Below, piece after piece: positions 4,652 through 60,880 of a stretch of 64,000 nt of DNA (position 1 is its first letter; every line of letters starts with the position of its first letter). Under the pieces are notes generated by a model, which made no database searches, had not been told where the DNA came from, and was given only the letters and a program-made list of their open reading frames with translations. The DNA comes from Adhaeribacter soli (GTDB taxonomy: Bacteria; Bacteroidota; Bacteroidia; Cytophagales; Hymenobacteraceae). Location: NCBI RefSeq assembly GCF_008727925.1, contig NZ_VTWT01000003.1, positions 434,001-498,000 on the forward strand. The letters are read 5' to 3'. The position numbers were made by a program, and so were the translations under genes.

Positions 4652-4679
4652 TTTAAAATTGCCTTAAGTTCAACAGTTT

Positions 4680-4721
4680 TAAATGATAATGGCACCAATT
4701 AATTGGTGCCATTATCATTTA
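4680..4721. repeat. 42-bp perfect palindrome, probable terminator
   Basis: Every base pairs with its symmetric partner from 4680 to 4721; the centre is GGCACCAATTAATTGGTGCC. Transcribed from either strand it would make a long hairpin, so it may end the lipoprotein gene's transcript, although only three T's follow it. Confidence 0.7.
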
Positions 4722-5048
4722 GGTGCATGTTTAAAATTCATCCTTAGCGCTGCAAATTTCCATTACCAGAACCTGAGTTCGTCTTTTTCTCGCACCATTG
4801 CGCTGCTATGCTGCTCCAAAAAGCCTTCCTCAGAATCTGGTACTGAAAACTTTCGCTTGCAAAAATAAAATTTAAACATACTCTAAAACTATTGAGGGAG
4901 AAAAGAGTTGATCAAACTTAATAAGTCTTTAAAAGATGATAGTTATCATAACTTTACTTTTTGGGACTGAAATAATACCGTTTTTTGAATTTTGGTCGTA
5001 CTTTTAAGGCTGAAAACGATACTGTTCCGGAAATTAATCTGATTTAGT
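4722..5048. other. intergenic, no gene seen
   Basis: AT-rich spacer between the palindrome and the dioxygenase gene. It must hold that gene's promoter, but I find no good TTG-N20-TAnnTTTG match. The short open frames here have no recognisable content. Confidence 0.5.
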
Positions 5049-6245
5049 ATGCCATTTTATCATAAATTAGGAAATATCCCGCATAAGCGGCACACCCAGT
5101 TCCGGCAGCCCGACGGCAGCCTGTACTCGGAGCAGCTGGTGGGAACGCTGGGCTTCAGCGGAGTTTCTTCTTTGCTTTACCACACCAATCCGCCAACCAA
5201 AATAGAGCGCATTGGCGAGCCGGTACCTTTCAGCTATAAATTTGCCAAGGAAGCGAAATACGCACCAAGCCATTTGCGCACGTTGGGCGAGAAAACCACC
5301 GGTGCTGATTACCTGAATGCCCGCAAAACCATGTTGGCCAATAACGATGTGGCGATCAGCATCTGTAATCCGTCGGAGGCGGAGATGAAATACTACTACA
5401 AAAATGCCATTGCCGACGAGGTGGTTTTTGTACACGAAGGCAGCGGGGAATTGCTTTCGCAAATGGGTAAGATCGAGTTCCGGCCGGGTGATTACCTGGT
5501 TATTCCGCGGACCATTATTCATAAATTCCGTTTCAACGAGGGGCAGGTGCGTTTGCTCGTAATCGAATCGTTCAGCCCGATCGAGACGCCACGCCGCTAC
5601 CGTAACCACTTCGGGCAGCTGCTGGAGCATTCGCCTTTCTGTGAGCGCGACATGCGTCCGCCAACCGAGCTGATAAACGAAACCGAAAAAGGCGAATACT
5701 TGGTACAGATCAAGAAAGAAGGGTTTTTGCACCAGTATTACTACGATTTCAGTCCGTTCGATGTAGTGGGTTGGGATGGCTTTTTCTTCCCGTACGCTTT
5801 CTCCATTCACGATTTCGAACCAATAACCGGCCGCATTCACCAGCCACCTCCGGTACACCAGACCTTCGAGGCGCATAACTTCGTGATCTGCTCGTTCGTG
5901 CCGCGTTTATACGATTACCACCCGCTGGCTATTCCGGCGCCATACAACCACTCCAACGTAGATTCCGACGAGGTGCTGTACTACGTGGAAGGTAATTTTA
6001 TGAGCCGCAAAGGCATCGACATTGCTTCGTTTACGGTGCATCCGGGCGGCATTCCGCACGGTCCGCACCCAGGCACGGTGGAGGCCAGCATCGGCAAAAC
6101 CGGTACCGAAGAACTGGCCGTAATGATCGATACTTTCAAGCCGCTGCACCTGACCGACGAGGCCATGAAGTACATCGACGAGAAATACCCGATGAGCTGG
6201 AAAGACCACCAGGACCCGCCGCGGGCTGCCGATATGATGGATTAA
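5049..6245 (+). CDS. hmgA: homogentisate 1,2-dioxygenase-like protein
   Basis: Cytoplasmic non-haem iron dioxygenase that opens the homogentisate ring in tyrosine and phenylalanine breakdown. It has 398 residues, shorter than the roughly 440 of animal and proteobacterial enzymes but usual for Bacteroidota. The first cupin reads FVHEGSGELLSQMG around 128-140 and GDYLVIPR at 147-154. Probable iron ligands in the second cupin are His301, Glu308 (in YNHSNVDSDE) and His337 (in IPHGPHPG). No other tyrosine-pathway gene is adjacent. It is transcribed alone, with a hairpin terminator downstream. The family assignment is firm, substrate less so. Confidence 0.85.
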   Translation: MPFYHKLGNIPHKRHTQFRQPDGSLYSEQLVGTLGFSGVSSLLYHTNPPTKIERIGEPVPFSYKFAKEAKYAPSHLRTLGEKTTGADYLNARKTMLANNDVAISICNPSEAEMKYYYKNAIADEVVFVHEGSGELLSQMGKIEFRPGDYLVIPRTIIHKFRFNEGQVRLLVIESFSPIETPRRYRNHFGQLLEHSPFCERDMRPPTELINETEKGEYLVQIKKEGFLHQYYYDFSPFDVVGWDGFFFPYAFSIHDFEPITGRIHQPPPVHQTFEAHNFVICSFVPRLYDYHPLAIPAPYNHSNVDSDEVLYYVEGNFMSRKGIDIASFTVHPGGIPHGPHPGTVEASIGKTGTEELAVMIDTFKPLHLTDEAMKYIDEKYPMSWKDHQDPPRAADMMD

Positions 6246-6338: not shown

Positions 6339-6911
6339 ATGAGAAAGCTTTCCGTCGTGCTTTTGCTGGCTGCTGCCTTGTTCACTTCCTGTAAAAAAGA
6401 AGTGGAAACCGTAGAAAAGCTCTTTACATTCGAAATGCGGAACGAGCAGCATTTTGTTGCGTCTAAAAAGGAAGTAAATAAAGCCTACGCTAACGGATCT
6501 GCCTGGGGATTGACAGAGGCAGAGTACCCGATTGCCATTGCCTCCGACTCTGAAGCAGAGTTTAAGCGGAATAATACGACTACGCACCTGGTGAAAAACA
6601 TCCGAGTACAAGAATTGAAAATGGCCATGCCTGGTAATTTATCGGCAACTTTTAACTTTTTGAAAGATATTGAAGTTTATGTGGCCGATTCTTTAAACCG
6701 CAATCCGGTACTAATGGCCTATGCCAGGGATATTCAGCCAGATGGGAAGAAAACCCTAATTCTTACGCCTACCGAAAACGTAATGGATAAATATGTGAAA
6801 ACGGGTAATTACAGCCTGAGAATAAAAGGCAAGATGGTTGATACTGTTTCCAGCGACCTGAATATTAAAGTGAATATGGTGTTTAAAGTAACGGCCAGCC
6901 CATTGAACTAA
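6339..6911 (+). CDS. lipoprotein, unknown function
   Basis: 190 residues from the ATG at 6339. An upstream in-frame ATG at 6267 lies before the terminator hairpin and is unlikely. The signal peptide is MRKLSVVLLLAAALFTSCKK with the lipobox Cys at residue 18. The mature part has no motif I recognise. It looks like an all-beta or mixed domain with the phrases VKNIRVQELKMAMPG and DIEVYVADSLNRNPVLMAY, which suggest a structural or adhesion-type periplasmic domain rather than an enzyme. It stands alone between two terminators. Confidence 0.7.
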   Translation: MRKLSVVLLLAAALFTSCKKEVETVEKLFTFEMRNEQHFVASKKEVNKAYANGSAWGLTEAEYPIAIASDSEAEFKRNNTTTHLVKNIRVQELKMAMPGNLSATFNFLKDIEVYVADSLNRNPVLMAYARDIQPDGKKTLILTPTENVMDKYVKTGNYSLRIKGKMVDTVSSDLNIKVNMVFKVTASPLN

Positions 6912-6937
6912 GAAGACTGCAACATATTACAAGGGAA

Positions 6938-6979
6938 GCCTTTCCGGAAGCTGCTATGCTTTTGGAAAGGCTTTTTTGT
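6938..6979 (+). terminator. terminator of the 6339 gene
   Basis: Stem GCCTTTCC (6938-6945) with GGAAAGGC (6964-6971), then TTTTTT. Confidence 0.8.
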
Positions 6980-7029
6980 TGGGGTTTGGTACTGTTTTAA
7001 TGTTAAGACTGGTTCCATGTTCAAAATAT

Positions 7030-7072
7030 ATTGCCGTCTGCTTTCCGTCAGCTAAAGCAGACGGCAATGAAA
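7030..7072. repeat. dispersed hairpin repeat, family A
   Basis: A 15-bp perfect stem (7030-7044 with 7054-7068) encloses a 9-nt loop. The 28-bp core 7045-7072 recurs identically at 13993-14020 and 59140-59167. Size, symmetry and intergenic position are those of a REP-like element. No transposase is visible nearby. Confidence 0.75.
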
Positions 7073-7110
7073 CTCGGTAAATAATCTTTCATGCTGCAGT
7101 CTCACCTTTT

Positions 7111-7556
7111 ACACCCCGGCCTGTCCCCCGACAGGCAGAAAGCACTGCAGCAAAGCGCGTTGTGCATAAGCTTCCATAAAGCGGTTTATAAAGGTAAAAT
7201 GCCTGGTGGGTTGACCTGAATGGAGCGGCGAGTCCGGCCTGTCGGGGGACCTACGGTATATACACATCTTTAAGAACCAACATCACCTCGGTCTGTACCC
7301 CCACAGACCGAAGTAGAGGCCTTAAAATTAGCAGTGGTTTGCTATCTGAACTAAGAGAAGTTCGAAATTCCGCCATTTCCGGGCAAAGCGTTTATTATGC
7401 ATAAATGAGCAGGTAGCTTTTTAATCTTTAACTGCAGTGCTTCGGTCTGTGAGGGCACAGACCGAGGTGACAGTTTATTCGAAAATACCAAAGACCGAAC
7501 CCTTTACATTGTAAAAAGGAGATGTGTATATACCGTAGGTCGGGGGACAGGCCGGG
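7111..7556. repeat. nested inverted-repeat element
   Basis: Most of the 694-bp gap between 6911 and 7606. A 36-bp arm at 7234-7269 is repeated inverted at 7520-7555. Inside, a hairpin beginning CTCGGTCTGT (7287-7311) recurs inverted at 7442-7466. A third partial copy of the outer arm with its own hairpin lies at 7113-7136. There is no open frame of note. It could be a non-autonomous mobile element or a structured RNA. Confidence 0.7.
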
Positions 7557-7605
7557 GTGGATGCATTTATACGATTGCAAGAATTGAATAAATCTGAAAG
7601 AAAAA

Positions 7606-8433
7606 TCAATAGCTGATAAAGATAACGACTAAGGTAAAAATGGTGAAGACACCGGCCATGATGCCGAAATTCATTCGGGCGGGCCAGGTGAAGTCTTTGT
7701 ACAGACCGGCAATGCCCAAGGCTGTTTGCAGCAATAAAAGCGCAAAGAAATTGTGGTAAATGCTGATCAGGTTCACATCGAACCAGTTTTGCAGGTACTC
7801 TATCCGGAGAACCTGCCGGAGCAAAGGAGTTTGCTGAACGGCAACGACATCGCCCAGTTGCAGACCTGTTTCCAGGAACGCTTCTTCCCGCATGCGGAAA
7901 GAAGCGGTTTCAGTAAAGATGCGCATGTATTTTTCGCCGGTATGGCCTGCTCCGTTTAAATCGTAAACCAGAATAGTTTGCCCCGGAATGGTTGTGGTAA
8001 AAAGATAATCCAGGAATAATATAGCCGAAATGAGCAAGGCCAGGGTGCAAACCTGGCGGAGCAGACCTTCATACTCGCGGTAGGAATTTACCGTGTAGTT
8101 CCGGTAATGCGAGGCATAGGAAGGCGGGGGATAAGGCGGCGTGTTCCGCGGCCGGGGCGGAGTAGGGCGTGGTGACTGGCGAGGCTGTGCTGCGGTAGTA
8201 GGTTTTGGCGGCGGAGAGTATTGAAAATTCAGCCAGCGGTAGTGGTAGATCTGCCTTTTTTCTTTATCGCCTAGGATCTGGTACGCTTCATTAATGTCAA
8301 GAAAGCGCTGGTGTTGCGTCGGATCAGTAGTTTTATCGGGATGGTACTGCTGGGCGAGCTTATAATACGCCTTGCGCACCTGTTGCTGGGTGGCGGTAGC
8401 CTCTATCTGTAAAAGCTGGTAATAGTCTTTCAA
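7606..8433 (-). CDS. membrane-anchored J-domain protein
   Basis: 275 residues. The J domain occupies about 1-65 with the HPD motif at 31-33 (YHPDKTT), the element that stimulates DnaK ATPase. A proline-rich linker follows (about 72-105, many PP and TPP runs). Then come a membrane segment near 125-150, a soluble loop and two more hydrophobic segments at the C-terminus (about 220-275). It lacks the zinc fingers and C-terminal substrate-binding domains of true DnaJ, so it is a specialised type III co-chaperone that would recruit DnaK to the inner membrane. It lies 13 bp downstream of a small membrane protein gene, probably co-transcribed. Confidence 0.85.
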   Translation of the reverse strand: MKDYYQLLQIEATATQQQVRKAYYKLAQQYHPDKTTDPTQHQRFLDINEAYQILGDKEKRQIYHYRWLNFQYSPPPKPTTAAQPRQSPRPTPPRPRNTPPYPPPSYASHYRNYTVNSYREYEGLLRQVCTLALLISAILFLDYLFTTTIPGQTILVYDLNGAGHTGEKYMRIFTETASFRMREEAFLETGLQLGDVVAVQQTPLLRQVLRIEYLQNWFDVNLISIYHNFFALLLLQTALGIAGLYKDFTWPARMNFGIMAGVFTIFTLVVIFISY

Positions 8434-31391: not shown

Positions 31392-31714
31392 TTTGTCTGA
31401 ACACAATTTTCAGGATTTTTGGGATGGGCAGGAATTTTTGACTCTTCCTGCGCTGTAATCTCCTTTCTAAAGAGAGCGTTTCTGCATCGAAGGCAACCAC
31501 CCCCAACCCCTCCTTGAAAAAAGGAGGGAGCTTTTCGGTTCCTGTTTCAAATTGCCTTTTGAAGCTTAAAAGTATACCATTTGCTATTGGCGCTTCATTA
31601 TAAAGTAGCAATGCCCAGCTCCCCTCCTTTTTCAAGGAGGGGTTGGGGTGGTTATTTCAACTTCTGCAGAGATCCTGTAAATCAATCTAATCCTGAAAAT
31701 CGTGTTCAGACAAT
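31392..31714. repeat. composite nested inverted repeat (families B and E)
   Basis: Outer pair of family B ends: 31392-31437 and, inverted, 31671-31714 (each carrying TTGTCTGAACAC or its complement). Inner pair of family E: 31500-31532 and, inverted, 31617-31653 (ACCCCTCCTTGAAAAAAGGA and its complement). About 85 bp of unique sequence lies in the centre. There is no protein frame. It fills most of the 403-bp gap before rlmN. Confidence 0.75.
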
Positions 31715-32889: not shown

Positions 32890-32926
32890 AAAGCACAGTT
32901 TGCAACAGCAGGCTGTGCTTTTTCTT
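32890..32926 (+). terminator. terminator of rlmN
   Basis: Stem AAAGCACAG (32890-32898) with CTGTGCTTT (32913-32921), then T-rich. Almost the same hairpin and flanks follow the genes ending at 37201, 39364 and 41591. Confidence 0.8.
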
Positions 32927-33082
32927 TTCAGTTGAAGATAAATAGCGATTAATGTGGGGGCATTTAAGCGTTTATGTTTTATTTTTATAACAGCGCAAAT
33001 TTCATTTATTTGTATTTAGAACTCTTACTACTCTAAACTTAATGTTTATTCTCTGTGGGGTTAAACTTTGAAGGAACAAAAT

Positions 33083-35008
33083 ATGAGCAGATTTCTTTCG
33101 CTTTTCCTTATTGCATTCATGCTTTTTGCCCCTTCAGACGCCTTTTCCCAGAATAAGGAAGGGGCAAACTGGCTTTTCGGCGGTAACATTCATTTAGATT
33201 TTAACAGGGCTAAACCCCGCATCGATGCATTTTCATTTATGGCAGTAGATTCCATGCTGAAAGGGGTTGCTGCAATCAGCGATAAAAATGGGGAGTTGCT
33301 TTTTTTTACGTCTAAAGGCCATGCTGTTAGTCGGCAAAAAGTAAATGGTATTTACCAGGCCATGCCTAATGGTGCGTTTCATACCGGACCTTTTCCAAAA
33401 TCTACTTTGGCTGAAATGATCATGCAAAGCCCCGCAGATTCCAATTTATACTACCTGTTTTTTGTAGGATATCAGTTCGTAAATAATATTTCTCACCAGA
33501 ACCTCTATTATTTGCAGATAGATATGCGGTTAAATAATGGGAATGGCGATGTGGTACCTAACTCTCTGCAATTACTGAAAAAGGAAGTTGCCCATTTTAA
33601 GCTTACGGCACTTTTACATTCCAATAACCGCGATACCTGGGTTGGGTGCACGAATTATGCTGGCGATAGTATCTTGGCTTATTTGGTAACTCCCGGTGGT
33701 ATTATGCCGCCAGTTGTTTCAAAACCATCAAATCGCTTTTCACCTTTCAGCCGCATGAAGGCTTCTCCCAATAGCGAAATGTTTGCAGTAGGTAATATAC
33801 TTGGTTCGGGAATAGAGGGCATGGATATTTATGACTTTAACCGGGCCACAGGGACTGCAAGCCTCAAATATTCACTCACACCTCCTGTTGTTGGTTATCC
33901 TTTGTTTTCATTTGCTTTTTCCCCAGATAATTCCAGGCTTTATGCAGGTACTATCGGCTATGCCGGTTTTCCTAACGACGCCACTGTTTTCCAATTCGAT
34001 TTAGCAGCCGGAAATAATGCACAGGTGCAGCAATCCAGGAATGTGATCTATAATACAACCAGATCGGATGGGGTTTTTGACATGCAATTAGCGATAGACG
34101 GCAAAATATACTTAGTAATAGACAGCACCTATTTAAGCCAGATTAATTGCCCTGATTTCTATGGTGCGGCATGCCGGTTCCAGACACAAGGAATAAAATT
34201 GCCAGGTCGGGTAAATGGCGGATCGTTGCCCACCTTAAACCAAACCATCTTCCGGAATGCCGGTAAACTGCAGGCACAAGCATACCGGAATTTGATCTGT
34301 GAAGGCGATTCGGTACCGTTATCCGCTTATGGAGCAGGTGCGGAGCAGTTCCGGTGGAAGCCGGCAAACGGGTTAACCTCTCCTGCCGATACATCAGCCA
34401 ATCCGGTAGTAAATCCAACGGAAACTACTACTTACATGGTAATTGGTAGCAGCGTCTGCCGCACCGATACGGCTTACGTAAAAGTAACTGTGCTGCCCAA
34501 ACCCAAGCCTCTATCAATATCAGGTCCGCTTCATGTTTATACGTATGCGGAAAAGCAGGTTTATTCAGTAAAAGACCCAGTGCCGGGAAACAAGTTCGAC
34601 TGGCAGGTAAGCGGTGGGAGTATCGGAAAAGGACAGGGAAGCAGCCGCATAGAAGTGAACTGGGGCGCAAACGGTACCGGAACCATTACCGTAACTGAAA
34701 GTAATGCTGCTGGCTGTAAATGGGGAAGTGCAAGCCTGGAAGTGGAAATCTCCGGCGAACCTGACCTGATCATCTACAACATCATCACCCCGAACGACGA
34801 TGGCAAGAATGATGCTTTTGTAATAGAAAACCTGAAGTGGTACCCGCAAAACGAGCTCCGCCTCTTTAACCGCTGGGGCATGCAAGTTTACCAGAGCAAA
34901 AATTACCTCAACAACTGGAAGGCTGGAAATGTAAGCGCCGGAATTTACTACTACCTCTTTACTGCCAACGGGAAAGCCTGGAAAGGTTGGGTGGAAGTGG
35001 TAAAGTAA
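33083..35008 (+). CDS. T9SS type B cargo, array copy 1
   Basis: 641 residues from the ATG at 33083; a TTG five codons earlier is possible. Signal peptide MSRFLSLFLIAFMLFAPSDA. Residues about 25-400 form a propeller-like module opening with GANWLFGGNIHLDFN and AAISDKNGELLFFTSKGH, repeating AFSPDNSRLYAGT near 290. Two PKD/Ig-like modules follow (about 400-475 and 475-560), then an 81-residue gliding-associated C-terminal domain (IITPNDDGKNDAFVIENL, FNRWGMQVYQSKNYLNNW, WKGWVEVVK), the type B T9SS signal. Exported and probably attached at or released from the surface. It is the first of five tandem paralogues. Its terminator differs from those after copies 2-4. Specific ligand unknown. Confidence 0.92.
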   Translation: MSRFLSLFLIAFMLFAPSDAFSQNKEGANWLFGGNIHLDFNRAKPRIDAFSFMAVDSMLKGVAAISDKNGELLFFTSKGHAVSRQKVNGIYQAMPNGAFHTGPFPKSTLAEMIMQSPADSNLYYLFFVGYQFVNNISHQNLYYLQIDMRLNNGNGDVVPNSLQLLKKEVAHFKLTALLHSNNRDTWVGCTNYAGDSILAYLVTPGGIMPPVVSKPSNRFSPFSRMKASPNSEMFAVGNILGSGIEGMDIYDFNRATGTASLKYSLTPPVVGYPLFSFAFSPDNSRLYAGTIGYAGFPNDATVFQFDLAAGNNAQVQQSRNVIYNTTRSDGVFDMQLAIDGKIYLVIDSTYLSQINCPDFYGAACRFQTQGIKLPGRVNGGSLPTLNQTIFRNAGKLQAQAYRNLICEGDSVPLSAYGAGAEQFRWKPANGLTSPADTSANPVVNPTETTTYMVIGSSVCRTDTAYVKVTVLPKPKPLSISGPLHVYTYAEKQVYSVKDPVPGNKFDWQVSGGSIGKGQGSSRIEVNWGANGTGTITVTESNAAGCKWGSASLEVEISGEPDLIIYNIITPNDDGKNDAFVIENLKWYPQNELRLFNRWGMQVYQSKNYLNNWKAGNVSAGIYYYLFTANGKAWKGWVEVVK

Positions 35009-35061: not shown

Positions 35062-35099
35062 AAAGCGCAATTTGCTCAAAAGCAGATTGCGCTTTTTTT
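35062..35099 (+). terminator. terminator of array copy 1
   Basis: Stem AAAGCGCAAT (35062-35071) with ATTGCGCTTT (35086-35095), then T's. The bases just before it (35013-35060) resemble the 3' flank of copy 5 (43768-43816). Confidence 0.8.
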
Positions 35100-35239: not shown

Positions 35240-37201
35240 ATGGGTGTGCGTAAATTATTCCCGGTATTTTGTATTGTTTTTTTTGGCTATTTATCGATGC
35301 CAGGCGTTTTTGCGCAAGAAAAGCAAGGTGCTAATTGGTTTTTTGCGGGCAGGGTTCATCTGGATTTTAATGTGCCGAAACCGGTAGTAACTAATTTTTC
35401 ATTTATTAAGGTAGACAGCCTGGCCACGGGCATTGCCGGGGCAGCAGCCATTAGCGATAAGAACGGGGATCCGCTTTTTTTTACCTCCGGAGGAAAAATT
35501 GCTACCCGGGAAAAGATAAACGGAGTCTATCAACCGATGGCTAACGGTAAATTTTTTTCGGGGAAAGTTCCTGACCTTCTTTATTCCGAAATGATCGTGC
35601 AAAGCCCGGGCGATTCAAACCTGTATTATTTGTTTTTTACCAAGTTTGAAAGGGCGATCAGTACAAGCGTAGATCTCTACCAATTGCAGGTAGATATGCG
35701 GTTGAATAATGGTTACGGCGATGTAGTGCCTAATTCTCTGCAACTCGTAAGGAAAAAAGTAAGTCCGTATAACCTTACTGCTTTCCTGCACCACAATAAC
35801 CGCGATACCTGGGTTAGCGCTGCTAATTCGGTTCCGGGTGCCGGGGTAAGCGATACTATTTTCAATTATTTGGTTACTCCAACGGGTATTTTGCCACCGG
35901 TTAAAACGAAAGTAACCACGCCCTTTAGTAGCTCGCGGATGAAAGCATCGCCAAATAGTGAAATGTTTGTAGTGGTCGCTTACAAATTAATTGCAGGCCA
36001 GCGAGTTCAGCACCTGGAGCTTTATGATTTTAACCGAACCACAGGCGTACCCACCCTTCGGTTTTCATTTCCAACCCCCAGCCTCGATTACCAATTATTT
36101 TCTTTCGCGTTTTCACCAGATAATTCCAAGCTTTACGCGGGAAGCTCCGGGCATACAGGCCTGCCTAAAATTGCAACCGTTTACCAATATGACCTGGCGG
36201 CCGGAAATACTGCCCAGGTGCAACAATCGCAGAACATAGTTTATAATAGTACTAATTTTTCGGGTGTTTACGATATGCAATTAGCTATTAACGGGAAGCT
36301 TTACCTGTATACCGAACCTGCATTTTTAGCGCAGATAAACTGTCCTGATTTTTATGGCCCGGCCTGTAACATTCAGGTAAACACGGTAGATCTTAACGGA
36401 AAAACCGAAGGGTATAGTTTACCAACCTTGAACCAGACCATTTTCCGGAACGCCGGTAAGTTGCAAGCGCAGGCCACCCGGCAAACGATCTGCGAAGGCG
36501 ATACGGTGCAACTATCCGCTTATGGCGCAGGCGCAGACCACTTCAAATGGAAACTGGCCAATGGCTTAATTCCCTCATCCGATACTTTAGTTAACCCGAT
36601 CGTAAATCCAACTGAAACTACTACTTACATGGTAATTGGCAGCAGCACCTGCCGCACCGATACGGCTTACGTAAAAGTAACGGTATTGCCTAAGCCCAAG
36701 CCTCTGTCAATATCAGGTCCGCTTCAGGTTCATACGTATGCCGAAAAGCAGGTTTATTCAGTAAAAGACCCAGTGCCGGGAAACAAGTTCGACTGGCAAA
36801 TAAGCGGCGGCACAATAGAAAAGGGGCAGGGAAGCAGCAGCATTGAAGTGAATTGGGGAGCAGCCGGCGCCGGAAGCATTACCGTAACGGAAAGTAATGC
36901 CGCTGGCTGTAAATGGGGAAGTACAAGCCTGGAAGTGGAAATCTCCGGCGAACCTGATCTGATTATTTACAACATTATCACGCCAAACAACGACGGAAAG
37001 AACGATGCCTTTGTAATAGAGAACCTGAAGTGGTACCCGCAAAACGAGCTCCGCATTTTTAACCGCTGGGGCATGGAGGTTTACCAGAGCAAAAATTATC
37101 GCAACAACTGGAAGGCTGAAAAGGTAAGCTCCGGAATTTATTACTACCTCTTTATTACCCAAGGAAAAACCTGGAAAGGCTGGGTGGAAGTGGTAAAATA
37201 A
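35240..37201 (+). CDS. T9SS type B cargo, array copy 2
   Basis: 653 residues from an ATG. The signal peptide (about 1-25) ends MPGVFAQ. Same order as copy 1: propeller-like N-half (GANWFFAGRVHLDFN, SRMKASPNSEMFVVV, FSFAFSPDNSKLYAGS), two PKD/Ig-like modules and a type B sorting domain ending WKGWVEVVK. The N-half differs from copy 1 in many residues and small insertions. The C-half is almost the same as copies 1 and 5. Bases 36577-36838 are identical, by my reading, to 43138-43399 in copy 5. It is the only other copy besides 1 with a usable ATG. Confidence 0.92.
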   Translation: MGVRKLFPVFCIVFFGYLSMPGVFAQEKQGANWFFAGRVHLDFNVPKPVVTNFSFIKVDSLATGIAGAAAISDKNGDPLFFTSGGKIATREKINGVYQPMANGKFFSGKVPDLLYSEMIVQSPGDSNLYYLFFTKFERAISTSVDLYQLQVDMRLNNGYGDVVPNSLQLVRKKVSPYNLTAFLHHNNRDTWVSAANSVPGAGVSDTIFNYLVTPTGILPPVKTKVTTPFSSSRMKASPNSEMFVVVAYKLIAGQRVQHLELYDFNRTTGVPTLRFSFPTPSLDYQLFSFAFSPDNSKLYAGSSGHTGLPKIATVYQYDLAAGNTAQVQQSQNIVYNSTNFSGVYDMQLAINGKLYLYTEPAFLAQINCPDFYGPACNIQVNTVDLNGKTEGYSLPTLNQTIFRNAGKLQAQATRQTICEGDTVQLSAYGAGADHFKWKLANGLIPSSDTLVNPIVNPTETTTYMVIGSSTCRTDTAYVKVTVLPKPKPLSISGPLQVHTYAEKQVYSVKDPVPGNKFDWQISGGTIEKGQGSSSIEVNWGAAGAGSITVTESNAAGCKWGSTSLEVEISGEPDLIIYNIITPNNDGKNDAFVIENLKWYPQNELRIFNRWGMEVYQSKNYRNNWKAEKVSSGIYYYLFITQGKTWKGWVEVVK

Positions 37202-37257
37202 TGCCTGCCGAGAAGCTGCATTTATGCATCTTTTAAGCCCAAAATCCTACCATTTTT

Positions 37258-37296
37258 AAAGCACAGTTTGCAACAGCAGGCTGTGCTTTTTCTTTT
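37258..37296 (+). terminator. terminator of array copy 2
   Basis: Stem AAAGCACAG (37258-37266) with CTGTGCTTT (37281-37289), the same hairpin as after rlmN, including the loop. Confidence 0.8.
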
Positions 37297-37435
37297 TGTC
37301 AGGAGATAAACGCTTTAAAGCTGCTGTCGCCAGCACAAACATTTTCTGGTTTAAACAGAACGAGTTTGCAACTTTTATCTGGTTTTTGTTATCATTACAG
37401 TTGAATAGCCTTTCTGAAATTTAATTCTGAAGAAA

Positions 37436-39364
37436 TTGATTACGCTCAACCTGCTCCGCTTACTACTTGTTTTTAGTTGCTTTATTTTTATTGTCCAGAA
37501 TTCCTATGGCCAGTTTAAAGAAGGCGCTAACTGGCTATTTGGCACTAAAATTCATCTGGATTTTAATAGCCCGAAGACAAAGGTAGATTCCTTTTTCTTT
37601 AACAGTACAGTAGCCGTAGGTGTTGCTACTATAAGCGATAAAAATGGCAACCTCCTCTTTTTTAGTTCCAATGGCCGGGTCGCTACGCGGCAAAAAGTAA
37701 ATGGCGCCTATAAAGAAATGCCGAACGGAGATTTAGTTTCCGCAACACCAAACCAAGGCACTTGGGCAGAGATGATCGTACAAAGTCCGGCAGATTCCAA
37801 TATTTACTACCTGTTTTATACTACCGGAGATTTACAGTTGCCTATTCCTTACCCGGCATTGTTTTGCGTACAGATCGATATGCGGTTGAATAATGGATAC
37901 GGCGATGTGGTGCCTGGGTCAAAGCATTTATTAAGAAGAAACGCAGGAAATTTTAAGCTTACCGCTTTATTGCATAGTAACAATCGCGATACCTGGATTC
38001 TGGCCCCCAATTACACGAACGATAGTATTTCCGCTTTTTTATTAACTTCAGGTGGCATAATGGCAGGGGTAACCACCAAATCTGCCAAACCCCTAAGTTA
38101 TATTAGCCGGATGAAAGCATCGCCCAACAGCGAAATGCTGGTAATAGGAGGCTATAACCCCCATGGGGCAGTAGAAAGCCTAGAGGTGTTTGATTTTAAC
38201 CGTACCACCGGAGTGCCAACCCATAAATATTCACTCCCTTCTCCAGATTCCAGATACCCTTTCTTTTCGTATGCTTTTTCACCCGATAATTCCAAGCTCT
38301 ATACCGGTACCATCGGAGATGCCACTAATCCCCTGAATGCGACTTTATTTCAGTACGACCTGGCAGCCGGGAGTGCTTTACAGATAGAGCAATCCAGAAA
38401 CGTTATTTTTAACAGAGCCAATTATTCAGGAATATTTGATATCCAACTGGCTATAGACGGTAAGCTGTATCTTTTAATAGATAGTGCCTACTTAAGCCAG
38501 ATTAGCTGCCCAAACTTTTATGGCGCCGCTAGCCGGTTCAAACTTAAAGGTGTAAAGCTAACTGCAGTTTCTGGAGGCGGAACCCTGCCAGCCCTAAACC
38601 AGACTATTTTCCGGAATGCCGATAAATTACAGGCCCAGGCGTACCGGAATACGATCTGCGAAGGTGATACAGTGCAGCTATCCGCTTATGGCGCAGGCGC
38701 AGAGCAGTTCCGGTGGAAACCGGCCAATGGCTTAATTTCTCCTGCCGATACATCAGCCAACCCAGTAGTAAATCCAACCTCCACCACTACTTACAAGGTA
38801 ATTGGCAGCAGCACTTGCCGCACCGATACGGCTTACGTGAAAGTAACCGTACTGCCCAAACCCAAGCCATTGGTAATGTCGGGATCGCAGCAGGTTCATA
38901 CGTTTGCAGAAAAACAGCAGTACCTGGTGCACAATCAAACTGCCGGGAATAGTTACTATTGGGAAGTTACTGGCGGAACGATAGCATCCGGGCAAGGACA
39001 AGCCAGCATTTTAGTTAATTGGGGAGATGAAGGTGCCGGAGTTGTCAGCGTAACGGAGAGCAATGCTGCCGGCTGCAAGCGAGTGACAAAGTTGCCCGTC
39101 CAGATCTCCGGCGAACCCGACCTGATCATTTACAATATCCTCACGCCCAACAACGATGGAAAGAACGATGCCTTTGTAATAGAGAACCTGAAGTGGTACC
39201 CGCAAAATGAGCTTCGCATTTTTAACCGCTGGGGCAAGGAAGTTTACCAGAGCAAGAACTACCTCAACAACTGGAAGGCGGAAAAGGTAAGCGCCGGAAT
39301 CTATTACTACCTCTTTACTGTCAACGGGAAAGCCTGGAAAGGTTGGGTAGAAGTAGTGAAGTAA
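37436..39364 (+). CDS. T9SS type B cargo, array copy 3
   Basis: 642 residues from a TTG at 37436 (ITLNLLRLLLVFSCFIFIVQ signal peptide). An in-frame stop at 37415-37417 and the lack of any ATG before the mature protein leave TTG as the best start. Propeller-like N-half opens GANWLFGTKIHLDFN with ATISDKNGNLLFFSSNGR. Two PKD/Ig-like modules follow, the second diverged from copies 1, 2 and 5 (MSGSQQVHTFAEKQQYLVHN), then the type B sorting domain. The 100-bp leader is shared with copies 4 and 5. Surface or secreted; ligand unknown. Confidence 0.9.
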   Translation: MITLNLLRLLLVFSCFIFIVQNSYGQFKEGANWLFGTKIHLDFNSPKTKVDSFFFNSTVAVGVATISDKNGNLLFFSSNGRVATRQKVNGAYKEMPNGDLVSATPNQGTWAEMIVQSPADSNIYYLFYTTGDLQLPIPYPALFCVQIDMRLNNGYGDVVPGSKHLLRRNAGNFKLTALLHSNNRDTWILAPNYTNDSISAFLLTSGGIMAGVTTKSAKPLSYISRMKASPNSEMLVIGGYNPHGAVESLEVFDFNRTTGVPTHKYSLPSPDSRYPFFSYAFSPDNSKLYTGTIGDATNPLNATLFQYDLAAGSALQIEQSRNVIFNRANYSGIFDIQLAIDGKLYLLIDSAYLSQISCPNFYGAASRFKLKGVKLTAVSGGGTLPALNQTIFRNADKLQAQAYRNTICEGDTVQLSAYGAGAEQFRWKPANGLISPADTSANPVVNPTSTTTYKVIGSSTCRTDTAYVKVTVLPKPKPLVMSGSQQVHTFAEKQQYLVHNQTAGNSYYWEVTGGTIASGQGQASILVNWGDEGAGVVSVTESNAAGCKRVTKLPVQISGEPDLIIYNILTPNNDGKNDAFVIENLKWYPQNELRIFNRWGKEVYQSKNYLNNWKAEKVSAGIYYYLFTVNGKAWKGWVEVVK

Positions 39365-39419
39365 TACCGACCAGAGAGCAGCGTTAATGCATCTTTTAAG
39401 CCCCAAACCCTACCACTAT

Positions 39420-39456
39420 AAAGCACAATTTGCAACAACAGGTTGTGCTTTTTTTT
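39420..39456 (+). terminator. terminator of array copy 3
   Basis: Stem AAAGCACAA (39420-39428) with TTGTGCTTT (39443-39451). Compared with the copy 2 hairpin one pair has changed on both sides (G-C to A-T), keeping the stem. Confidence 0.75.
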
Positions 39457-39596
39457 GCCAGGATTAATGCTTTGTAGCAGCTATCGGAAGAGCAAACATT
39501 CTTTCTTTTTTTTAACAGAATCCGTTTGACACTTTTATCTGATTTTTGTTATCATTACAGTTGAATACCTTTTCTGGAATTTAAACCTGAAGAAAA

Positions 39597-41591
39597 TTGA
39601 TTTCACCCCGACTGCTCCGGATTCTGCTTGGTTGCACCTGCTTTATTTTAATTGCTCAAAACTCTTTTGCTCAGTTTAAAGAAGGCTCAAATTGGATGTT
39701 CGGCACTAAATTTCACCTGGATTTTAATTACCCGAAGCCTACCGTAAATACCTTTTCTTATCTCGATACAAATGCAATTGGTGTGGCTTCGATCAGCGAT
39801 AAAACCGGGAACCTGCTTTTCTTTAGCTCGGGCGGGCATGTGGCTACCCGGCAAAAAGTAAACGGAACCTACCAGGAAATGCCCAATGGTGATCTAACTG
39901 CCAGTTTTTTTTACCAATCAGGTACAACGGCTGAAATGATCGTGCAAAGCCCGGCTGATTCCAATGTTTACTATCTTTTCTATACTGTGCTTGTAACTGA
40001 TTCAACGAATTATGCCTTAGATGGATGCAACCTTTATAGTGTTCAGATTAATATGCGGCTGAATAACGGCTACGGCGATGTAGTGCCTAATTCGCGGCAG
40101 TTAGTAAGAAAGAACGTAAATGGCGGGAGACTTACAGCCTTATTGCACAGCAATAACCGCGATACCTGGGTACTGTGCCAGGGTGGTTCTTTTCCCAAAA
40201 ATGATAGCCTTTCAGCTCATTTAGTAACTCCTAACGGTATTATGCCGGCTGTAAAAAGCAAACCGGCAAAGCCCTTAGGGATATTTAGCCGGATGAAAGC
40301 ATCTCCAAACAGCGAAATGTTTGTGGTACTTGGTGAAGAAACTCAGCAAGGTACCCTCATTGATCCAGCCTTAGAAGTGTTTGATTTCAATCGTAGTACC
40401 GGGGTGCCTAGCCACAAGTATTCCCTGCCACCAACTGATTTCTGGTACCCGATGGCCAGTTTTGCTTTTTCGCCCGATAATTCAAAGCTTTATGTTGGTA
40501 CAAGCTCATTTGTACAAATATCCCCTAATACCACTTTATACCAGTTCGACCTAGCTGCCGGCAATGCCGCCCAGGTGCAGCAGTCCAGGAATGTTATTTA
40601 CCATACTACCGATTATACCGGAGTACTGGATATGCAACTGGCAATTGATGGTAAGGTGTATTTATTAATCGATGGGTATAATAAAAGCAATATTGCCGGG
40701 TATAAGAATCAGTATTTAAGTAAGATCAACTGCCTCAATTCTTATGGCCCTGCCTGCCGGTTTCAATTTCAGGGCATTAACCTGAAAGCAGTGAATGGCG
40801 GCCCGGCTTTGCCTGCCCTAAACCAAACCATTTTCCGGAATGCCGGTAAATTACAGGCACAAGCTTACCGCAACGTGATCTGCGAAGGCGATTCGGTACA
40901 GCTGTCTGCCTACGGCGCAGGTGCCGAGCAGTTCAAATGGAAACCGGCTAACGGTCTAACTTCACCTGCCGATACGCTGGCCAGCCCGGTAGTAAATCCA
41001 ACTGCCACCACTACTTACATGGTAATCGGCAGCAGCGTTTGCCGCTCCGATACAGCTTACGTGAAAGTAACGGTGCTGCCGAAGCTCCCGGGCGTTTCTA
41101 TTTCCGGTCCGGTTCAGGTTCACTCGCTTTCCGAAAGGCAGGAATATTATGTGTTGAACCCGGCAGCGGGCAGTGCATTTAACTGGCAGGTAAACGGCGG
41201 CGAAATAGCAGAAGGCCAGGGAACAAACCGTATTCGGGTAAACTGGGGCGTTGCGGGCGTTGGTAGCGTGAGCGTGGCAGAGATCCCGGCAACAGGCTGC
41301 AGCGGCCAAAGAACCCGTTTAACTGTAGCGCTTTTGGATGGACCGGCCCCTGTAATCTACAACATCATCACGCCAAACAACGACGGTAAGAACGATGCCT
41401 TTGTGATCGTGAACCTGGAGTGGTACCCGCAAAACGAGCTCCGCATCTATAACCGCTGGGGCATGGAAGTTTACCATAGCAAGAATTACTTCAACAACTG
41501 GAGAGGGGAGAAGGTAAGTTCAGGAATTTACTACTACCTCTTTACGGCCAACGGAAAAACCTGGAAAGGTTGGGTGGAAGTAGTGAAGTAA
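39597..41591 (+). CDS. T9SS type B cargo, array copy 4
   Basis: 664 residues, the longest copy, from a TTG at 39597; the preceding in-frame codons include TGA at 39588. Signal peptide ISPRLLRILLGCTCFILIAQ. The N-half matches the family (GSNWMFGTKFHLDFN) with insertions near 130-145 and 355-370 (NKSNIAGYKNQYLSK). The second PKD/Ig-like module is the most divergent in the array (VSISGPVQVHSLSERQEYY, then EIPATGCSGQRTRL) and the junction to the sorting domain reads DGPAPVIYNIITPNND instead of GEPDLIIYN. The sorting domain itself is conserved. Confidence 0.9.
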   Translation: MISPRLLRILLGCTCFILIAQNSFAQFKEGSNWMFGTKFHLDFNYPKPTVNTFSYLDTNAIGVASISDKTGNLLFFSSGGHVATRQKVNGTYQEMPNGDLTASFFYQSGTTAEMIVQSPADSNVYYLFYTVLVTDSTNYALDGCNLYSVQINMRLNNGYGDVVPNSRQLVRKNVNGGRLTALLHSNNRDTWVLCQGGSFPKNDSLSAHLVTPNGIMPAVKSKPAKPLGIFSRMKASPNSEMFVVLGEETQQGTLIDPALEVFDFNRSTGVPSHKYSLPPTDFWYPMASFAFSPDNSKLYVGTSSFVQISPNTTLYQFDLAAGNAAQVQQSRNVIYHTTDYTGVLDMQLAIDGKVYLLIDGYNKSNIAGYKNQYLSKINCLNSYGPACRFQFQGINLKAVNGGPALPALNQTIFRNAGKLQAQAYRNVICEGDSVQLSAYGAGAEQFKWKPANGLTSPADTLASPVVNPTATTTYMVIGSSVCRSDTAYVKVTVLPKLPGVSISGPVQVHSLSERQEYYVLNPAAGSAFNWQVNGGEIAEGQGTNRIRVNWGVAGVGSVSVAEIPATGCSGQRTRLTVALLDGPAPVIYNIITPNNDGKNDAFVIVNLEWYPQNELRIYNRWGMEVYHSKNYFNNWRGEKVSSGIYYYLFTANGKTWKGWVEVVK

Positions 41592-41645
41592 TACCTGCCA
41601 GGAAGCGGCATTTCTGCACCTTTTAAGCCCAAAATCCTACCAATA

Positions 41646-41684
41646 TAAAACACAATTTGCAACAGCAGGCTGTGCCTTTTTTTT
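41646..41684 (+). terminator. degenerate terminator of array copy 4
   Basis: Corresponds to the copy 2 and 3 hairpins but with unpaired changes (ACACAA against CTGTGCC), leaving a weak stem before a T-run. Confidence 0.4.
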
Positions 41685-41821
41685 GCCAGGATTAATGCTT
41701 TGTAGCAGCTAGCGGCAGAACGAACATTCTTTCGGTTTAACAGAGTCAGTTTGCAACTTTTATCTGATTTTTGTTATCATTACAGTTAAATAGCCTTTCT
41801 GAAATTAAATCCTGAAGAGAA

Positions 41822-43762
41822 TTGATTACGCTCAACCTGCCCCGGATCCTGCTCGGTTTTATCTGCTTTATTTTTGCTGGTTATATTTCCTTTGCGCAGC
41901 AGAAAGAAGGAGCCAATTGGATAATGGGGAATTCACCCTACCAGTTGAGGCTTGATTTTAACGGAAAGAATCCGGCCCTTTCTTCTGTTACATTTCTGAA
42001 TAACCAGTTCCATGGTTTTGGGGTTTCAACCATAAGCGACAGGAACGGCCAATTGCTTTTTTTTAGTTACCAGGGTAACGTTGGCAGCCGGCAAATAGTA
42101 AATGGCGCTTACCTGCAGATGCCGCACGGCGATCTTTTAGCAGATTTGCCTACCAGAGCTTCTTTTGCTGATATGATTGTAAAAAGCCCTGCTGACTCGA
42201 ACATTTATTACCTTTTTTTTATAGATGGAATAAAGAATAGCTGGCCATCTGTCAGTCCCAATCTGTATCAGGTGCAGATAGATATGCGCCTGAATAATGG
42301 TTTTGGCGATGTAGTGCCAAATTCCAGGCAATTACTAAAACGGAACGTAAGCGCAATGAAGCTAACCGCTTTAATGCATAGCAATAACCGCGATACCTGG
42401 GTACTAGCTTTAACCAATAAATGTGATACTGCCATTGCTTATCAGGTAAATTCTGCAGGCATTCAGGCACCGGTGTTAACCAGAATTACAACGCCGCTCG
42501 ACACTCAGAGTAAGCTGAAGGCATCTTTAAACAGCGAAATGGTTGCCGTAAATGGACTGCAGGGAGTAAATCCAACCGTAGTGCTTTTCGATTTTAATCG
42601 AACCACCGGTGTGCCTACGTATCGATATTCCCTGGCTTCGGCAAGTGGCTTGTATCCGTTATTTTCCTTTGCCTTTTCGCCCGATAATTCAAAATTATAT
42701 GCCGGTACCGTAGGTCATAACGGCTATCCCTACAATGGAACCATATTTCAGTTCGATCTCGCATTAGGTAATGCTGCGCAGGTGCAGCAATCCCGCAATA
42801 TTGTTTTTCAAAATGATTCGGCAGCAATTGGAGATATCCAAATAGGAATAGATGGAAAGCTTTATTTTACGGGAATTGGAAAGTATTTAAGCGAGATCAG
42901 CTGTCCGAATTTTTATGGTACTGCCTCTAAGGTTAAGTATAAGGCAATACCTATAAATAGCTATGCAGGTGTTGTCTCGCTACCTACTCTAAACCAAACC
43001 ATTTTCCGGAATGCCGATAAATTGCAGGCACAGGCTTACCGCAACGTAATCTGCGAGGGTGATTCGGTGCAGCTGTCCGCCTATGGAGCGGGAGCGGAAC
43101 AGTTCAAATGGAAACCAGCCAATGGCTTAATTCCTTTATCCGATACTTTAGTTAACCCGATCGTAAATCCAACTGAAACTACTACTTACATGGTAATTGG
43201 CAGCAGCACCTGCCGCACCGATACGGCTTACGTAAAAGTAACGGTATTGCCTAAGCCCAAGCCTCTGTCAATATCAGGTCCGCTTCAGGTTCATACGTAT
43301 GCCGAAAAGCAGGTTTATTCAGTAAAAGACCCAGTGCCGGGAAACAAGTTCGACTGGCAAATAAGCGGCGGCACAATAGAAAAGGGGCAGGGAAGCAGCC
43401 GCATTGAAGTGAATTGGGGAGCAGCCGGCACCGGAAGCATTACCGTAACGGAAAGTAATGCCGCTGGCTGTAAATGGGGAAGTGCAAGCCTGGAAGTGGA
43501 AATCTCCGGCGAGCCTGATCTAATTATCTACAACATTATCACGCCAAACAACGACGGAAAGAACGATGCTTTTGTAATTGAGAACCTGAAGTGGTACCCG
43601 CAGCATGAGCTCCGCATTTTTAACCGCTGGGGCGTGGAAGTTTACCAAACTAAGAATTATCTCAACAACTGGAAGGCGGAAAATATAAGCTCCGGAATTT
43701 ATTACTACTTCTTTACTGCTCAAGGAAAAGCCTGGAAAGGTTGGGTGGAAGTAGTGAAGTAA
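41822..43762 (+). CDS. T9SS type B cargo, array copy 5
   Basis: 646 residues from a TTG at 41822 (ITLNLPRILLGFICFIFAGY signal peptide). The N-half is the most different (GANWIMGNSPYQLRLDFNGK; the DIQIGIDGKLYFTGIG region lacks the usual IDSxYLSQ). The C-half carries the same PKD/Ig-like modules and type B sorting domain as copy 2, with an identical DNA stretch of about 262 bp, a sign of sequence exchange between copies 2 and 5. It is the last gene of the array, with a strong hairpin after it. Confidence 0.9.
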   Translation: MITLNLPRILLGFICFIFAGYISFAQQKEGANWIMGNSPYQLRLDFNGKNPALSSVTFLNNQFHGFGVSTISDRNGQLLFFSYQGNVGSRQIVNGAYLQMPHGDLLADLPTRASFADMIVKSPADSNIYYLFFIDGIKNSWPSVSPNLYQVQIDMRLNNGFGDVVPNSRQLLKRNVSAMKLTALMHSNNRDTWVLALTNKCDTAIAYQVNSAGIQAPVLTRITTPLDTQSKLKASLNSEMVAVNGLQGVNPTVVLFDFNRTTGVPTYRYSLASASGLYPLFSFAFSPDNSKLYAGTVGHNGYPYNGTIFQFDLALGNAAQVQQSRNIVFQNDSAAIGDIQIGIDGKLYFTGIGKYLSEISCPNFYGTASKVKYKAIPINSYAGVVSLPTLNQTIFRNADKLQAQAYRNVICEGDSVQLSAYGAGAEQFKWKPANGLIPLSDTLVNPIVNPTETTTYMVIGSSTCRTDTAYVKVTVLPKPKPLSISGPLQVHTYAEKQVYSVKDPVPGNKFDWQISGGTIEKGQGSSRIEVNWGAAGTGSITVTESNAAGCKWGSASLEVEISGEPDLIIYNIITPNNDGKNDAFVIENLKWYPQHELRIFNRWGVEVYQTKNYLNNWKAENISSGIYYYFFTAQGKAWKGWVEVVK

Positions 43763-43830
43763 ATATTTCTTCCTGAAAACATACTCTTACTTTTTAGCTG
43801 AAAAGAGTAGCATTTTCAGGCTAAAAACCA

Positions 43831-43867
43831 AAGCCGGAAACTACGCTTGTAGTTTCCGGCTTTTTGT
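43831..43867. terminator. bidirectional terminator after the array
   Basis: A 15-bp perfect stem (43831-43845 with 43850-43864) with a 4-nt loop lies between the convergent genes ending at 43762 and 43868. Confidence 0.9.
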
Positions 43868-45118
43868 TTATTCCAGTTTGCCAATACCCTTACGGTTGCC
43901 AAGTTTAAACGTGAAGCTGTAATAAATGGGAATGAAATACGACGAAACGATCTGGCCGCTGTCGTGGCGGTTGCCGGAGTAAGCGGCGTAGAAGCCGCCC
44001 AGATCCAGGTTGGTGCGGGGCCAGATAAAGCGCAAACCGTATAAGCCAAAGCCATAGGTTCGGTCGCCGGGAACGGAAAGGATATAATTTTCGCTCATAA
44101 ATGCCAGCCGGTTCGACATGCGTTTTACCCCGCCCAGCATTACCAGCGGGGTGCTGGAAACATTGCCGTTAAAAAAGGCGAAACCGATACCGGCCGTAAT
44201 ATGGTCGCTTTTATTGCCGTAGGTTCCGGCGCTATAGAGCAAACCGAATTGCTCTTCCAGGAAATTGACAAAAAGCACGCCGCCGGCCACGTTGGTATTT
44301 TCAGTGGTCGGAAAACTGATCTTAGGCGTTAGGGCAAAAATATTATTTTCCAGCGGCAGGAAAGGCATCAGCAAAAAAGTGCTGCCTATAGAGATGTTGT
44401 CCGTTATGCCGTAGTTAATGGAATTTAAATAACCGTAAATGGTTTGAACGTAGCCTTCGCCGCGTGGAATGCCCCGGCCGGTCGGGCCGAAGTACAGGCG
44501 GCTGTCGTGCGGGTTCGGTACCCAGTAGTAACCGCTTTTAAGCCGGTTTTCCACTTCTTTCATGTAGCGGATATTCCCGAAAGTAGCCGTAATCGTTCCA
44601 AAATATTCCGTATTGAAAACGTATTCCGAAGCCCGTTTTTCGGCAACGGTGCCGAAGAACTTCATGCCGTTGCTCAGAATTACGTAATACACCTTTCCCG
44701 AAAGCGCAGTTGCGGCAGGTCTGGTGTCGGATTGGGCGGGAACGGGAACTGCCGGAGCAGGAGCAGGCGTTTTTTGCGGCGGCACAGTACTGTTTTTAGC
44801 ACGCGCTTCTATCAGCTGGCCGGTAAGTTCAAATTCGCTTTGGGTATAAGGCCGGTAATCTATTTTGCCGTTCCGTTTTACTATTTCCAAGATAATGCCG
44901 TCCGGCGTTTGCAGAAACCTTCCGATCTGGAACGTAGCCGAATCGGCGAAAGGGAAAAGATTATACCTGATCTTTTCTTCCAGGTCTATTACTTCGCCTA
45001 CGACCGGGCTTACGGGCAAAACTTTCTGATCCTGCAGGGTTTGCCCCAGTACCGGCCAGGCCGCCAACAGCAAGGTGAAAAACAGTAGCTTTTTAAGCAG
45101 AAAAACCGGGAAACGCAT
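43868..45118 (-). CDS. outer-membrane protein with C-terminal barrel, unknown function
   Basis: 416 residues. Signal peptide about 1-25 (LLFFTLLLAAWPVLGQ). Residues 30-110 form a small domain (DGIILEIVKRNGKIDYRPYT), followed by a Pro/Ala linker (112-135) and a second small beta domain near 138-190 (YYVILSNGMKFFGTVAEKRA). From about 205 onwards alternating hydrophobic and aromatic strands (GYLNSINYGITDNISIGSTF, VAGGVLFVNFLEEQFGLLYS) suggest an 8-12-strand outer-membrane barrel. It is convergent with the array and transcribed alone. Not a TonB receptor. Function unknown. Confidence 0.75.
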   Translation of the reverse strand: MRFPVFLLKKLLFFTLLLAAWPVLGQTLQDQKVLPVSPVVGEVIDLEEKIRYNLFPFADSATFQIGRFLQTPDGIILEIVKRNGKIDYRPYTQSEFELTGQLIEARAKNSTVPPQKTPAPAPAVPVPAQSDTRPAATALSGKVYYVILSNGMKFFGTVAEKRASEYVFNTEYFGTITATFGNIRYMKEVENRLKSGYYWVPNPHDSRLYFGPTGRGIPRGEGYVQTIYGYLNSINYGITDNISIGSTFLLMPFLPLENNIFALTPKISFPTTENTNVAGGVLFVNFLEEQFGLLYSAGTYGNKSDHITAGIGFAFFNGNVSSTPLVMLGGVKRMSNRLAFMSENYILSVPGDRTYGFGLYGLRFIWPRTNLDLGGFYAAYSGNRHDSGQIVSSYFIPIYYSFTFKLGNRKGIGKLE

Positions 45119-51463: not shown

Positions 51464-51498
51464 TGATTAGTGATTAGTGATTAGTGATTAGTGATTAG
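51464..51498 (+). repeat. tandem heptamer TGATTAG x5
   Basis: Five exact head-to-tail copies of TGATTAG in the divergent tdh/kbl region. Not in a coding frame. Confidence 0.9.
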
Positions 51499-51534
51499 TA
51501 TTTTAATGATTAATACCATCTCATTAATACACCT

Positions 51535-51567
51535 GTCATCCTGAGCGCCAGCGAAGGACCTCGTCGG
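51535..51567 (+). repeat. dispersed repeat, family C, copy 1
   Basis: A 33-bp unit beginning GTCATCCTGAGCGCCAGCG, identical to 60559-60591 and, with one change, to the inverse of 60802-60834. Confidence 0.8.
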
Positions 51568-51639
51568 CTTTCAGTAGAAAAGCACGCTGCAACATGGCAA
51601 CCATTTAAGGGATGACTTCTACTACAAGCAACGCTTACC

Positions 51640-60492: not shown

Positions 60493-60880
60493 CGTTGCTC
60501 GTTGTTCGTTATTCATTGTTCGGGATGCCGGATAGAGAGCAACGAGCTTGAAATTTAGGTCATCCTGAGCGCCAGCGAAGGACCTCGTCGGCGAACAGTA
60601 TGAAAATTAGCTACAACGAGAAAATGAAAGGCCTGTTTTTTTGTGTACATCATTACAAACCCTAAGAAATCCGTGCTTTACACTGGTGTAATTAACAAAA
60701 AGTTGGACGAGAGCTAAGAAGGAAGCTTTGATTGCAATTGCAAACCCGAACTGGGATTTTCTGGAAGTATAAGTGCTTTTCGTTAATTTCTCTGCAGTTC
60801 TCCAACGAGGTCCTTCGCTGGCGCTCAGGATGACAGAACCTTTAAAGCTTCGAATCAACAACGAACAACGAATAACGAAA
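60493..60880. repeat. nested repeat block (families G and C)
   Basis: Outer pair: CGTTGCTCGTTGTTCGTTA at 60493-60511 and its approximate inverse at 60855-60880. Inner pair: family C at 60559-60591 and inverted at 60802-60834 (33 bp, one difference). The central 210 bp are unique, AT-rich and without a convincing gene. The right outer unit abuts the permease start codon. Confidence 0.8.

Follow-up and report, generated by a model that had tools for sequence, protein, structure and literature searches.

Two non-adjacent genes of a five-gene tandem array have an identical segment of 262 bp in common, and the question raised by this locus is which process made the two segments alike. The array lies in the window, i.e. 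the whole 64-kb stretch of DNA that was analysed (C10:434001-498000 of a draft genome of 4.97 Mb in 16 contigs).

A tandem array of predicted surface protein genes

The five genes of the array are located on the same strand, the gene upstream of them is rlmN (Pfam RlmN_N and Radical_SAM), and their products are 642-664 residues long. Positions are given in the numbering of the window.

33068..35008, + strand: array gene 1, predicted T9SS type-B cargo (open frame read from TTG, although translation may begin at a later ATG)
35240..37201, + strand: array gene 2, predicted T9SS type-B cargo (open frame, Pfam, NCBIfam, AlphaFold model)
37436..39364, + strand: array gene 3, with a different PKD_6 version (open frame, window identity, Pfam)
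39597..41591, + strand: array gene 4, with a different PKD_6 version (open frame, window identity, Pfam)
41822..43762, + strand: array gene 5 (open frame, Pfam)

Both PKD_6 and CHU_C were found by Pfam in 5/5 array proteins, and since CHU_C scored above cut-off in every case each protein was assigned a C-terminal type-B sorting domain; the NCBIfam T9SS type-B domain TIGR04131 was above cut-off in 3/5. In the gene 2 product PKD_6 covers residues 486-561 and CHU_C residues 575-650. A hydrophobic N-terminus is visible in the translated array proteins. The AlphaFold model of gene 2 was nearly all beta (mean pLDDT 72.8, with low confidence in the CHU_C part), and the fold comparison, which covered residues 30-402, aligned this part to beta-propellers, the top match being 1l0q (Z 23.4, rmsd 3.1, 280 aligned), a YVTN propeller from an archaeal surface-layer protein. 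The predicted layout of the array proteins is an N-terminal beta-propeller followed by an Ig-like region, PKD_6 and the CHU_C sorting domain, and the products are predicted to be secreted surface proteins with a propeller head, an Ig-like/PKD stalk and a sorting tail.

An antigenic-variation cassette system was considered and, on the sequence, rejected: it would have one expressed locus and donor copies that are silent, promoterless or truncated, and all five genes are full-length open frames, each with its own intergenic region. Terminator-like hairpins were observed after rlmN (32890-32921) and after array genes 1, 2, 3 and 5 (35062-35095, 37258-37289, 39420-39451 and 43830-43863, respectively), and the hairpins after rlmN and after gene 2 are contained in a 43-bp exact repeat.

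An identical tract in array genes 2 and 5

The segments 36577-36838 and 43138-43399 were identical over 262 bp with 0 mismatches and the adjoining base differed on either side, in agreement with the base-by-base identity claimed in an earlier sequence-only reading of this DNA. No other exact repeat in the window comes near this length, the runner-up being 56 bp. When the whole draft genome was searched with the 262-bp segment 7 matches were obtained, of which two were perfect and both within the array; the remaining ones were the three sister genes (88, 82 and 73%) and two weak sites on another contig.

36577..36838, + strand: exact tract, gene 2 copy (residues 447-533; 3' half of the Ig-like region and most of PKD_6)
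43138..43399, + strand: exact tract, gene 5 copy (exact repeat match)
36577..36951, + strand: extended near-identical tract, gene 2 (3 mismatches to gene 5 in 375 bp; third-position run to 36949)
43138..43512, + strand: extended near-identical tract, gene 5 (list of mismatches between genes 2 and 5)
36962..37189, + strand: CHU_C sorting domain of gene 2, outside the tract (Pfam residues 575-650)

Over the tract interval the identity of genes 3 and 4 to genes 2 and 5 was about 54-66% within PKD and 71-88% within the Ig half (90-column windows). The earlier statements that these two intervening copies differ across the interval and that the regions flanking the tract differ between genes 2 and 5 are both borne out, the latter by 48 mismatches in 36404-36576 and by unalike 3' flanks. 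The same reading had taken the sorting domain as the surroundings of the tract, which has to be corrected: the tract sits in the Ig/PKD stalk, and CHU_C (from residue 575, position 36962) lies outside it as a neighbour.

In the C-terminal part the 48 mismatches between genes 2 and 5 on the 5' side of the tract are followed by 3 in 36577-36951 and by 27 in the last 250 bases, and the identity falls from 99% to 89% beyond 36951. The 5' edge is sharp at 36577 and the 3' edge is soft, with the three mismatches of the 3' extension at 36839, 36869 and 36923. At all three the gene 5 residue is that of gene 1 in the alignment, so that gene 2 has probably acquired these changes since the event, or else gene 5 has been patched. 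The tract is two-sided, about 262 to 375 bp long, with unchanged flanks.

Excess identity and synonymous divergence

Pairs of array genes were about 37-79% identical in the propeller part, with a steep rise near column 1260 of the alignment (90-column windows). The sequence-only reading had suggested a conversion test of the GENECONV type, and such a test was performed by shuffling the polymorphic sites 10,000 times, which sets a floor of p = 1e-4. The excess identity between genes 2 and 5 persisted, at this floor in each case, when the C-terminal part only was used (run of 113 matching polymorphic sites), when third positions only were used (run of 87 sites, 36577-36949) and when the comparison was confined to the related trio of genes 1, 2 and 5 (run of 32 sites). 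Pairs 1-2 and 1-5 also had a significant run of 33 sites in the C-terminal part, because genes 1, 2 and 5 have a common PKD version as compared with genes 3 and 4. Pair 1-3 was marginal in the same part (global p = 0.02), and the test found no significant run in the C-terminal part of the remaining pairs.

The synonymous divergence (dS) between genes 2 and 5 was 2.84 in the propeller, 1.64 in the Ig region before the tract, 0.00 in the tract, 0.04 in the rest of PKD and 0.47 in CHU_C. Within the tract 0/61 synonymous sites differed, which is significantly fewer synonymous differences than in CHU_C (Fisher p = 2e-7), and at the mismatch rate of CHU_C a run of 262 matches would arise with a probability of about 1e-13. 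Genes 1, 2 and 5 have the PKD version in common anyway, with a dS of 0.41 for gene 1 versus genes 2 and 5, so that part of the similarity between genes 2 and 5 is older.

Probable gene conversion and alternative explanations

The excess identity, the two edges and the recency are established, and a recent two-sided ectopic gene conversion between array genes 2 and 5 is very probably what gave rise to them. Conversion was one of two processes proposed in the sequence-only reading, and it agrees both with the permutation result (p = 1e-4) and with a dS of 1.64 upstream of the tract, 0 within it and 0.47 for CHU_C; the other, a recent unequal exchange, fits worse, as the two genes diverge again 3' of the tract and gene 5 is followed by a flank like that of gene 1, not gene 2. 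The conversion would have occurred by homologous recombination between paralogues 2 and 5, presumably RecA-dependent, and one continuous segment of about 262-375 bp would have been copied, with a sharp edge at 36577 and the other near 36951, close to the PKD/CHU_C border, so that the propeller and the sorting domain would not have been involved. The functional effect is probably small: the two stalks grow alike and the exposed propellers remain distinct.

In the propeller tree gene 2 groups with gene 1 (97/98) and not with gene 5, which conflicts with the tract. The PKD and CHU_C trees were weakly supported and settle little beyond the propeller tree. The 2/5 tract is probably the youngest layer of repeated module exchange within the array, in which the saturated propellers would be old, the CHU_C ends as well as the PKD version common to genes 1, 2 and 5 of intermediate age, and the 2/5 tract new. 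Three genes of a genus-mate (G001) grouped together in the CHU_C tree (84/87), a hint that dispersed genes may exchange sequence.

A single unequal crossover of misaligned copies, by which a hybrid gene is formed and genes 2 and 5 inherit their 3' part from one parent, is an improbable explanation. The genes are in tandem on the same strand and sufficiently similar at the 3' end for such an event, and the array has clearly undergone rearrangement: genes 3, 4 and 5 resemble each other upstream, where genes 1 and 2 differ, and the 3' flanks are of two types. A single crossover predicts that the identity runs on into the 3' flank, however, and this is not seen. Beyond 36951 the identity drops from 99% to 89% (27 mismatches over the final 250 bases), and on its 3' side gene 5 has a flank like that of gene 1, whereas that of gene 2 is like those of genes 3 and 4. 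The single crossover therefore fits poorly.

Still less probable is an assembly artefact in which the two tracts were collapsed or the copies cross-joined. The genome is a draft in 16 contigs, 262 bp is longer than many short reads, and collapse of near-identical copies by the assembler could account for the last per cent of identity. Both tracts are, however, on a single 517,546-base contig, where each lies within an intact reading frame and the flanks differ, and it can be reasoned that for two direct copies on the same chromosome a single linear order keeps the intervening segment. Moreover, the flanks differ by 28% and 11%, and between such flanks collapse might remove the last differences from near-identical copies but would not produce the identity. 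Purifying selection as the sole cause of the identity is practically excluded, for although the protein sequence of all five genes is strongly conserved in places within the C-terminal half, genes 1, 3 and 4 have accommodated many changes in this segment and the lack of any difference at 61 synonymous sites rules it out unless an RNA or DNA element constrains them.

Age of the tract and comparison with a genus-mate

For six ortholog pairs around the locus the dS between the source genome and the genus-mate G001 was 0.73-1.64. Given 0/61 synonymous differences in the tract, the conversion event would be much younger than the split from G001 if rates are equal. In G001 rlmN adjoins a yihY-like gene with no array between them, and its two closest homologues lie elsewhere (50 and 48% identity); because the array is missing at this locus, G001 cannot polarise the event. 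A contig search (15 loci, best segment 48%) found no close relative with the array in a set from which the genomes nearest the source may be missing.

The propeller dS of array pairs, which ranged from 1.57 to saturated, equals or exceeds most of the ortholog values, and judged by this divergence the array genes seem to date from the species split or from before it. This suggests that the array was lost or relocated in one lineage. A convergent gene downstream of the array (43868-45118, 416 aa), for which there was no Pfam match, is missing from G001 along with the array.

Tandem CHU_C genes at other loci

At least 30 tandem CHU_C groups were present among the matches listed from 32 genomes, chosen by eye as CHU_C matches within about 8 kb on the same contig and strand. 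An exact tract of at least 100 bp was found in 4/30 of these hand-picked groups.

Window array: 262 bp, in Ig/PKD
L095: 1226 bp, whole 3' half
L110: 146 bp, internal module
L114: 400 bp, in PorP/SprF genes

The exact tracts of the other 26/30 groups were at most 92 bp, and 11 of these groups were without an exact repeat of at least 20 bp. The permutation p-values for short seeds in this survey were left aside, being biased by the choice of the best diagonal. A family-wide restriction of conversion to sorting domains was considered and rejected, as the tracts in the 4/30 groups lie in differing modules and that of L114 is not in cargo; conversion-like tracts recur with no fixed module. In L114 (G012:C11) CHU_C cargo genes alternate with PorP/SprF genes, and the exact 400-bp tract (3398-3797 and 7279-7678) lies in two PorP/SprF copies that are about 81% alike.

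L095 belongs to the same genome as the window (G000:C9:52000-64000), and like the array it consists of tandem CHU_C genes with diverged N-terminal ends and an exact common tract, 1226 bp that are identical at the 3' end (4032-5257 and 6539-7764). Unlike that of the array, the L095 tract is one-sided: it reaches the 3' end and about 20 bp beyond the open frame. The dS of the pair climbs toward the 5' end (0, 0.08, 0.45, 0.70, 0.60, 1.42, 1.18, saturated). At the syntenic place in G001 there is one such CHU_C gene. Either conversion or a recent duplication with N-terminal replacement could have generated the L095 pair. Together, the 2/5 tract and the L095 pair suggest that C-terminal similarity among T9SS cargo reflects exchange as well as descent.

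Relation to known systems

By itself the event in array genes 2 and 5 is a new example of a known and well-understood recombination process and represents ordinary molecular evolution; it is of value as a clean conversion event in T9SS cargo, with edges that can be compared with domain borders. Concerted evolution in prokaryotes and ectopic gene conversion between bacterial paralogues are described in the available part of PMC6053082. As far as that part goes, the array is similar in that paralogues of one genome have a segment far closer than both their flanks and the orthologous divergence; it differs in that its tract is short, module-sized and in a predicted secreted surface protein, and in that the array gives no sign of long-lasting concerted evolution, the genus-mate being without it.

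A second comparison is with the T9SS-exported gingipain/HagA genes of Porphyromonas gingivalis, for which the available part of PMC5266723 reports identical repeats and domain rearrangement and proposes gene conversion. On the basis of that part, the two systems, from one phylum, are alike in that surface proteins exported, or predicted to be exported, by the T9SS have reshuffled domains and repeats that are identical within and between genes, but the gingipain/HagA case concerns adhesin-domain modules in unlinked genes and variation between strains, whereas the array has one tract in tandem cargo genes of one genome. In the available part of PMC5714932 the phrase gene conversion / concerted evolution occurs only in the title of a cited work. 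Little on within-genome conversion in T9SS cargo was found in the literature searched, an absence that carries little weight given that subscription journals were mostly outside its coverage.

A broader proposal, which we regard as rather doubtful, is that recurrent module-by-module conversion in the tandem genes of this family, T9SS cargo and PorP/SprF alike, homogenises the stalk and sorting ends and that the exposed N-terminal domains diverge. If this were true, such arrays would constitute a slow mix-and-match system for surface proteins.

Other repeats in the window

Upstream of rlmN a dispersed repeat, about 165 bp long and bounded by inverted ends, was observed at 31476-31662, with 108 whole or partial BLAST matches in the genome; by its look only, it is MITE- or REP-like. 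A run of 7-base tandem repeats is present at 51464-51499, and a 34-bp intergenic repeat at 51535-51568 occurs again at 60559-60592.
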